Positions 6,649-10,771 of a stretch of 64,000 nucleotides of DNA are shown piece by piece. Source of the stretch: Deltaproteobacteria bacterium (GTDB taxonomy: Bacteria; Desulfobacterota; Desulfarculia; JACQYL01); the NCBI GenBank assembly GCA_016208165.1, contig JACQYL010000014.1, positions 1 through 64,000 on the forward strand. The letters run 5' to 3'. The notes under the pieces were generated by a model. The model searched no databases. It was not told the DNA's origin and saw nothing but the letters and a program-made list of their open reading frames with translations. Position 1 is the stretch's first letter. The number at the start of each line of letters is the position of its first letter. The position numbers and the translations under genes were made by a program.

Positions 6649-6952
6649 AGGGTACTCCCGACTAAAAGTGCGGCATACCGGACGACGTGTTATCGTCTTC
6701 TCTCCCGGCGGCATTTTTATCCCAATTATGTTAGAATCATGTCAAAAAGCTACAAACCGGCGTCGTTTGTCAACCGGATTTGTTGGATTTCGTTCCTCGA
6801 GCCAGCTTTGTCCGCATTCGCTTGACCGTTCCACCAACGCTGTGGTTTCCTATACATAATTTCGATTAGGCCGGGCGCACCGTATTGGAAAAACCGATAC
6901 CAGCGCTCCTCTTGTCCACGGCACAACGACGCAGCATCATGGAGGAACACTC

Positions 6953-7423
6953 ATGGGAGAAATCGTTCACACGACCCGGAGCCACATTGTGCGTGAATCG
7001 GGTCCCACTCGCAAAGCGGTGATCGAAGGATTCGACGGAGTCATTCACTATGGCGTTCACGGGGGAATCAAGAAGTTCTACAAGGTGGAGCCCAAAGAGG
7101 AGTACCCCGCCACCCTCGACCACATGGTAAGCGCCATCGCGGCCTGAATGATGGGCACACTGGCCGCGGTGCTGGCCGGAAAAAAGATCAAGACCTTCGA
7201 AGAACTCTACTCGGCTGATGTGGAAGGAGACATCGAGAACGTCAATGGTGTCTTGAAAATCACCCAAATCCGAGTCAAATACAACTTGAAAGTACCCAAA
7301 GGCAAAACCGCGGACGCGCGCGACGCACTATCCTCCTATATTGAAGGCTGTCCCGGAGCCCAGAGCGTTATCGGCTGTATTGACATCAGCGACGAGGCGG
7401 ACATCGTGGAACTCGACGAATAG
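6953..7423 (+). CDS. OsmC family peroxiredoxin-like protein, probable selenoprotein (TGA read as Sec65)
   Basis: An ATG at 6953 has GGAGG seven bases upstream. The frame runs 64 codons to a TGA at 7145-7147, then continues in the same frame for 91 codons to a TAG at 7421. Together they make a 156-residue protein of normal OsmC length, with no part missing and no frame change. The TGA falls where OsmC proteins have the peroxide-attacking cysteine (SAIAA-U-MMGTLAAVL), and the resolving cysteine is present at residue 133 in YIEGCPGAQS. A hairpin with SECIS-like geometry follows the TGA. OsmC proteins reduce organic hydroperoxides in the cytoplasm. Selenocysteine versions have been reported in bacterial selenoproteome surveys, as far as I recall. 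A broken gene is the alternative, but the position and the clean second half argue against it. The selA/selB/selC genes are not in this window. Confidence 0.8.
7160..7179 (+). promoter_or_regulatory. Candidate bacterial SECIS hairpin after the OsmC TGA
   Basis: CTGGCC at 7160-7165 pairs with GGCCGG at 7174-7179 over six base pairs, one of them a G-U pair. The eight-base loop GCGGTGCT begins with G and starts about 19 bases after the TGA. Bacterial SECIS elements need an apical loop roughly 16-37 bases downstream with a G in its first two positions, and this fits. The pairing was done by eye and not folded computationally. Confidence 0.6.
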
Positions 7424-8650: not shown

Positions 8651-10771
8651 ATGCAGAAAGCCGAGATGAGATCTCTGTGTGAAAAGTACGCCTCACAGGG
8701 TGCGACGATTGTTCCGGAACACGTATCCAAAAAGATCATCAAAGAGTACGGGGTCAGCGTGCCTGAAGGATCCTTGGCGAAAACCGCCGGCGAGGCCGTC
8801 CAATTCGCAAAACAAGTGGGATTTCCCGTTGTCGTAAAAGCGGTTTCCCCCGAGATCCTCCACAAAACGGAACTGAGCGGCGTGGCGCTGAATCTGGCCT
8901 CCCCCGAAGAAGTGAAGAACGCTTGCGACCGTATTGAGAGCAATTTGTCCAAGCGGGCGGAAACCTTGGAAGGCTTTCTGGTCGAAGAAATGATTCAGGG
9001 CGATATGGAACTGATTATCGGACTCCAAAACGACCCCTATTTCGGCCCTGTTCTCATGTTAGGCACCGGAGGCGTCTATATTCACCTGCTGAACGATGTG
9101 ACGTTCCGGGTACTCCCCGCAACACGGGAAGATATCCAGGCCATGATCGAGGAGATCAAGGGCAAAATCCTGATGCGCGGGTTCCGGGGAAAGCCTCCTC
9201 TCGCCGAAGGCGCCCTGATCGAGGCCATGCTGAAAATCGGACAATTCGGCGTGGACGCCGCAGGCCTGTATGACACCGTGGACTTCAATCCCGTGTTGCT
9301 CAACGAGTTGGAAGCCGTGGCCCTGGATGCGAAAATCGTCCTTTCCAAGGTTCCAAAAGCAACCACGATCAGCGATGAACGCCCCAATGTCACCAACATG
9401 GACAAATTCTTCGCGCCGAAGAACGTGGCTCTCATCGGAGCGTCCACTACGCCGGGCAAAATCGGAAACGCGGTGGCGGACAGTTTGATCAATCACGAAT
9501 TCAAGGGAAACGTCTTTCCGATTACAAAAGGCGGAAAGGAAGTGTTCGGACTCAAGAGCTACGAGAACCTCCAGGAGATACCCGAAAAGATCGATCTGGC
9601 CGTGGTCGTCGTGGGGTTGGCCCTGGTGCCCGGTATTCTGGATCAATGCAAGGACCTCGGCATTCCGGCCGTACTCATTGTATCCGGCGGCGGGAAGGAA
9701 TTGGGAGCCGAAGCGGCGGCGCTCGAAAGAGAAATCCATCTGAAAGCGCGGGAATACGGCATCCGGGTCATCGGTCCCAACTGCATCGGTTGCTTCAACG
9801 CGGAAAACCGGTTTGACGCTTTTTTCCAGGTTCACGAACGCATGGTGAGGCCCAAGGTCGGAAATATTTCCTTTATCACTCAAAGCGGCACCTATGGGGC
9901 CAGTTTCCTCGAAGAATGCGCTCTCATGGGCGCCAGCAAAATGATTTCTTACGGCAACCGCGTGGACGTGGACGAGGCGGACATGATCCTCTATCTGGCC
10001 GAGGATCAGAACACGAAAGTCATCGGTTCCTATGTGGAAGGACTGGGGGACGGCCGCAAATTCCTCGAGGCGGCAAAACAAGTGATCTCCAGGCATCGGA
10101 AGCCCATCGTGCTGTATAAGTCCGGTCGAACTTCGCGGTCGGCCGTGGCCGCCCAATCCCATACCGGCGCTTATGGGGGCGCCTACGGAGTTTATTTGGG
10201 TGCGTTCAAACAAGCGGGCATTCTGCCCGTGGACTCGTACGAGGAACTGGTGGGAGTAACCAAGGCGCTTTCCATGCAGCCGGCGGCAAAAGGGCCTTGA
10301 ATATCCATGATCAGTAACGGAGCGGGTCCCATGGTCAACGCCATAGACCTGTTCGATCGTTACGGTCTAGAGATTGCCAGACCGAACCCATCGTCCGTCC
10401 AGGAAATGGAAGCGCACTATCCGGCCTTCTATATCTGCAAGAATCCGGTGGACGTAACAGGCTCGGCAACGTCCGACGACTACGCGTTCGCCATGGAATG
10501 CCTGCTCAAAGACGACAATGTACATGTCATCATGAACTGGTTCGTGTTTCAGGACACACCCCTCGATGAAGGGATTGTGGAAGCATTGGACAGAATCAAC
10601 CGGAAATCGGATAAACCGATCCTGTGCGGTGCCACGGGAGGACCCTACACCAAGAAAATGAACCGGGCCATCGAAGAAATCGGAGTGCCTGTATACGAAT
10701 CCTCCCATGGTTGGATCGCAGCGGCCAATGCGCTGGTCAAATGGGGCGCTATCCTGAAGCGCGCGAGATAA
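8651..10771 (+). pseudogene. ADP-forming acyl-CoA ligase, interrupted by an in-frame TGA
   Basis: The reading frame is that of a 706-residue ligase in ATP-grasp-first order. Residues 1-230 are ATP-grasp (PVVVKAVSPEILHKTELSGV), about 250-380 CoA-binding (ALIGASTTPGKIGN), and 380-706 the succinyl-CoA-ligase-like part with SQSGTYG and the phosphohistidine segment SHTGAYGGAYG. A TGA at 10298-10300 splits it after residue 549; the same frame resumes with ISMISNGAGPMVN, so nothing is missing and no frameshift is present. As I remember the family, this position is not cysteine but often arginine, and CGA to TGA is one transition. No good binding site precedes the ATGs at 10307 or 10313. The product would convert an acyl-CoA, ADP and phosphate to acid and ATP. 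A true nonsense mutation, a sequencing error or readthrough are the options; selenocysteine is less likely here. Confidence 0.75.

Follow-up and report, generated by a model that had tools for sequence, protein, structure and literature searches.

Does the TGA codon inside an OsmC-like reading frame of this deltaproteobacterial contig end translation, or is it read as selenocysteine (Sec)? We examined the gene at 6953-7423 of the window (the whole stretch of DNA that was analysed, 64,000 nucleotides long) together with its relatives in other genomes. Taken as a whole, the best explanation is very probably a full-length OsmC-family selenoprotein, in which the UGA is recoded via a downstream hairpin, and in which Sec65 and Cys133 likely take part in a peroxide cycle. 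The features of the locus are:

6936..6952, forward strand: ribosome-binding region, with an AGGA-type site ahead of the start codon (an equivalent site is found in 57 of 60 relatives)
6953..7423, forward strand: OsmC-family selenoprotein gene, 156 residues followed by TAG, with Sec at residue 65
7145..7147, forward strand: TGA read as Sec (residue 65), at the peroxidatic cysteine position of OsmC/Ohr proteins, matched by alignment to the ACF motif in 6d9n
7160..7179, forward strand: SECIS-like hairpin within the published bSECIS limits, stem CUGGCCG / UGGCCGG of 7 bp, apical loop CGGUGC
7349..7351, forward strand: Cys133 (TGT), the likely resolving residue, invariant in the 30-row alignment

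An OsmC-family reading frame with an internal TGA

The open reading frame runs from ATG through 63 further sense codons to the TGA (codon 65), and continues for another 91 codons to a TAG at 7421-7423. The initial annotation had described a 156-residue OsmC frame with an in-frame TGA at 7145-7147, and both its coordinates and its description are correct: the read-through product matches PF02566 (OsmC) with an E-value of 4.4e-11 and 43.5 bits (gathering cut-off 27.5), and all 30 aligned members of the clade match the same model at E <= 0.01. The other properties that it had read from this one gene (a good start site, no binding site ahead of the codon after the TGA, an intact second cysteine at residue 133, and a second half free of decay) hold across the relatives as well. 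An AGGA-type site lies upstream of the ATG, and 57 of the 60 genes compared have an SD-like 4-mer ahead of their start codon; the codon directly 3′ of the TGA, codon 66, is itself an ATG in the window gene, and an SD-like 4-mer stands ahead of this position in only five of the 60. Cys133 is invariant in the 30-row alignment, and the second half of the frame contains one further cysteine, Cys142. Purifying selection is evident on both sides of the TGA, with median dN/dS values of 0.05 before it and 0.14 after it. A gene caller would take the TGA as a stop and list either a stub of 64 residues or a fragment of 91; misannotation is therefore likely wherever the gene occurs.

The codon at residue 65 among relatives

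Merging the results of our searches and removing identical sequences gave a set of 68 distinct relatives, which include 60 non-redundant Sec forms. The column of residue 65 holds TGA in 66 of the 68 and TGC in the remaining two; TAA, TAG, and any other codon were each found in none. The alignment with homologues that had been proposed as a check on the initial annotation thus yields a column occupied by Sec (TGA) or Cys (TGC) and by nothing else. The first 36 relatives (35 from a scan that took one genome for each species, and one, 61% identical and from the window's class, added by the relatives search) comprise 34 TGA forms, two TGC forms (L043 and L046), and no form with another codon; one of the six patterns used in the species scan was written for Cys, a possible bias that could act only towards Cys forms. 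A profile search of 395 genomes of the phylum returned 35 full-length matches, among them that of the window, all with exactly one internal TGA, and one further match that is split over two contigs and also carries TGA; the few leftover weak matches come from degenerate fragments (G245) or from another OsmC protein (G229). Both Cys forms are single continuous proteins.

Going by their record titles, the carriers belong to several phyla: most are Syntrophaceae and other deltaproteobacteria, and others are bins named as Methylomirabilota, Actinobacteria, Bryobacterales, KSB1, Abyssobacteria, and Dehalococcoidales, names that are not always reliable for bins. One divergent member, L116 (G083:C19), has the TGA and a hairpin with a GUA loop, and scores about 109 bits against the family profile; it may link the clade to the wider diversity of OsmC proteins.

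A constrained hairpin behind the TGA

For bacterial SECIS elements, the published limits call for a loop of 3-9 nt with a G among its first two positions, a stem of 4-16 bp, a UGA-to-loop spacing of 16-37 nt, and a minimum free energy of -7.5 kcal/mol or lower (PMC13188914). The hairpin in the window begins 12 nt behind the UGA and lies within all of these limits, with a G at loop position 2, a UGA-to-loop distance of 19 nt, and an energy of -9.7 kcal/mol. The same limits hold for 57 of the 60 non-redundant Sec forms, as against 14% of controls that encode the same protein with synonymous codons and 4% of the other codon positions in those genes. In both Cys forms, a GCC-to-TCC change (alanine to serine) breaks the stem and puts them outside the limits. 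Two divergent members from Bryobacterales (L050 and L051) satisfy the limits by means of a different, shifted stem of 8 bp.

A signal that does not depend on folding points to the same element: the synonymous choice is fixed at codons 70, 71, 74, 75, and 76, which make up both arms of the stem, and of the gene's five codons under the strongest synonymous constraint, four belong to the stem. The mean excess synonymous identity is 0.29 over codons 68-77, compared with 0.015-0.044 elsewhere in the gene. The stem shows modest covariation (paired cells make up 92.8% vs. 90.6% after shuffling, with none of 2000 shuffles as high), its small size being due to the invariance of most pairs. Folding of the 61 nt around the TGA as a single sequence revealed no unusual stability (z 0.15), so the case for the hairpin is made by the comparison of relatives and not by the energy of one sequence; an Rfam scan of the region gave no match.

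Fold and active site

An AlphaFold2 model built from the 30-row alignment (pLDDT 90.6) has the OsmC/Ohr fold, and its best matches in the PDB are OsmC and Ohr structures. The global superposition is low, presumably since OsmC and Ohr proteins are intertwined dimers while a single chain was modelled. Residue 65 lies midway along the central helix (residues 55-76). That the TGA occupies the position of the attacking cysteine, as the sequence of the window had suggested, is borne out by a profile alignment that places residue 65 on the Cys of the ACF motif in the Ohr structure 6d9n, and Cys133 on the second Cys. Arg20, Asp56, His36-Gly37-Gly38, residue 65, and Cys133 are all invariant in the 30-row alignment, and the peroxidatic and resolving pair of an Ohr peroxidase has its counterpart in Sec65 (or Cys) and the invariant Cys133.

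In the Ohr cycle, a thiolate held by an arginine and a glutamate (Glu51 in X. fastidiosa) attacks the peroxide to give a sulfenic acid, which forms a disulfide with the resolving cysteine; the disulfide is then reduced by a lipoylated protein (PMC5962072). We propose that a ribosome arriving at UGA codon 65 would meet SelB with Sec-tRNA(Sec) bound at the hairpin, and that Sec would be inserted in place of a stop. The completed protein would fold as an OsmC/Ohr subunit with Sec65 at the place of the peroxidatic cysteine, halfway along the central helix. The Sec65 selenolate would most likely attack an organic or lipid hydroperoxide, giving a selenenic acid that Cys133 would resolve to a selenenylsulfide, and a cellular dithiol, either a thioredoxin or, as with Ohr, a lipoyl protein, would reduce the selenenylsulfide again. 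The comparison of relatives establishes the coding of Sec, the hairpin, the family, the fold, and the two conserved redox residues; a peroxide as the substrate, and the reductant, are what we infer. Peroxidase chemistry seems to us the moderately favoured reading of this site. A simple transfer of the Ohr cycle is opposed by two observations: the column of the catalytic Ohr glutamate holds Leu55 in a hand alignment, adjoining the invariant Asp56, and the gene lies by itself among neighbours that vary from locus to locus; the chemistry is accordingly no more than probable. The neighbours in the window encode an enoyl-CoA hydratase, a citrate synthase-like protein, a DUF2889 protein, and an ATP-grasp acyl-CoA synthetase. 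None of the neighbouring gene families turns up in more than three of 28 loci, and none points to a peroxide response. Many of the carriers appear, from their bin names, to be anaerobes, which also counts against peroxidase chemistry.

The protein might instead be a selenoprotein that is no peroxidase, with Sec serving in some other thiol/selenol exchange or in sulfur transfer, similar to other roles of the OsmC fold. We regard this as a possibility on the unlikely side. In its favour, besides the unaligned glutamate and the lack of peroxide-response neighbours, the likeness to peroxidase subfamily models is weak (17.7 bits against TIGR03562, cut-off 85.8), and seven of the 30 members give weak matches to XcbD, an OsmC-like enzyme that acts in coenzyme M synthesis. 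Against it, three invariant residues, Arg20, Asp56, and the Cys at the resolving position, could together form an Ohr-like site.

Relation to known OsmC proteins

In 2005, three sequences of OsmC-like selenoproteins with the motif UxxT were described from the Sargasso Sea (COG1765; PMC1088965). Such proteins were found again in the GOS survey (PMC2398784) and occupy one row in the reviews of 2022 and 2026 (PMC9312934, PMC13188914). We take the curated family NF041052 (OsmC_like_Se) to be the 2005 family, because its TGA members read U-L-L-T or U-M-F-S; in the phylum of the window they are represented by L101 (genome G250), L102, and a second copy in G093. The OsmC family, Sec at the peroxidatic position, and a SECIS-like hairpin are common to NF041052 and the clade of the window, whereas the motif differs, being UxxT in the former and UxxGT(L) in the latter, where it reads U-M-M-G-T-L or U-L-T-G-T-L. 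The window protein scores only 14.5 bits against NF041052 (curated cut-off 95), and the best E-value among the 30 members is 1.5e-5. In the tree, a branch supported at 100/97 separates the window clade from L101 and from the Cys OsmC proteins, which include the genome's own Cys paralogue on contig C58; the tree has long branches, so we read no more than separateness from it. Score and tree together rule out membership of the window gene in NF041052. Two clades of OsmC selenoproteins coexist in the same phylum.

The fold, the reactive residue, and the second Cys match those of the Cys-based OsmC/Ohr hydroperoxide reductases (TIGR03562, TIGR03561; 1nye, 1n2f, 6d9n); the window protein differs in having Sec for Cys, in scoring below the curated cut-offs of the subfamilies, and in lacking an aligned counterpart of the catalytic Ohr glutamate. 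With bacterial selenoproteins that carry a SECIS element behind the UGA (e.g., formate dehydrogenase) it has in common the coding UGA, a hairpin within the limits, and the sel genes, but the protein family is a different one. An earlier description of the window clade was not found in the part of the literature that was covered, and the clade is apparently an uncatalogued, second and separate OsmC clade of a known kind of selenoprotein. It adds to the selenoproteome, and the curated OsmC_like_Se model misses it.

Within the tree, the two Cys forms nest inside the Sec clade, so their Cys state is derived; Sec is the rule in the clade and Cys the rare exception. The rare change from Sec to Cys, with the loss of the hairpin visible beside it, offers a good natural test of why Sec is kept by a lineage at an OsmC active site. 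More doubtfully still than the non-peroxidase reading above, the clade could be an OsmC subfamily in which Sec is ancestral and nearly obligatory, in which Cys arises through joint loss of Sec and SECIS, and whose active site (no Ohr glutamate, invariant HGG and TLD) is suited to a chemistry other than ordinary peroxide reduction.

Selenocysteine machinery of the genome

The initial annotation had pointed to selA, selB, selC, and selD as the genes to look for, and in the 142-contig draft assembly three of the four are intact: selB on contig C98 (383.9 bits, cut-off 242), selD on C58 (362.5 bits, cut-off 125), and the tRNA-Sec gene (selC, anticodon TCA) on C33 (77 bits, confirmed by ARAGORN). 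The fourth, selA, is present (C48:84608-85842; L054 about 1320-2592) but is interrupted in this assembly: it is split into two pieces that lie in different frames, and about 50 codons found in its relatives are absent. No second copy was found when we looked for one in the genome. The interruption may stem from the assembly or be a genuine lesion. A strain with a real selA lesion might not make Sec, so that a gene from a genuine selenoprotein family would here yield only the truncated product; the case at the level of the family would be unaffected. We consider such a loss unlikely: the internal deletion with its frame change and the missing second copy speak for it, whereas selB, selD, tRNA-Sec, and a Sec-type formate dehydrogenase alpha subunit (FdhA) with a single in-frame TGA are all intact in the same genome, and small deletions do occur in draft assemblies of this kind. 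The co-occurrence of the gene with selB is uninformative, since selB is present in 353 of the 395 sampled genomes of the phylum. The proposal that the TGA encodes Sec is supported jointly by the TGA/TGC-only column, the constrained hairpin that is lost in the Cys forms, and the presence of selB, selD, and tRNA-Sec.

Two other formate dehydrogenase/molybdopterin matches in this genome contain stop codons in frame: C20:22169-22930 (L097) has one TGA, and C56:18698-19672 (L100) has one TAG and may be a broken gene.

Restart, nonsense mutation, and a second in-frame TGA

The locus could also be read as two split genes, a 64-residue protein ending at the TGA and a 91-residue protein opened by the ATG that follows it, and an ATG does follow the TGA in 56 of the 60 Sec forms. 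We judge this highly improbable. Sites that could support a coupled restart are missing (SD-like 4-mers being as scarce ahead of codon 66 as they are common ahead of the true start), and the divergent members L050-L052 and L116 have CTG after the TGA; neither TAA nor TAG replaces the TGA in any relative, and the Cys forms are continuous. A break at this point would fall inside the central helix, and the constrained hairpin would have no role. The missing binding sites, the CTG codons, and the continuous Cys forms rule out coupled restart. A nonsense mutation, sequencing error, or pseudogene has a negligible chance, being refuted by the TGA at one column in 66 distinct genes and the purifying selection after it, even though another TGA in the window does look like plain nonsense or error.

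That second TGA, at 10298-10300 (KGP*ISMISNGAG), lies in frame within a gene of the acyl-CoA/acetyl-CoA synthetase (ADP-forming) type at 8651-10771, whose second part continues past it in the same frame. Homologues in the synthetase family presumably have a basic residue at this column, which would mean a nonsense change or an error and not a Sec codon.
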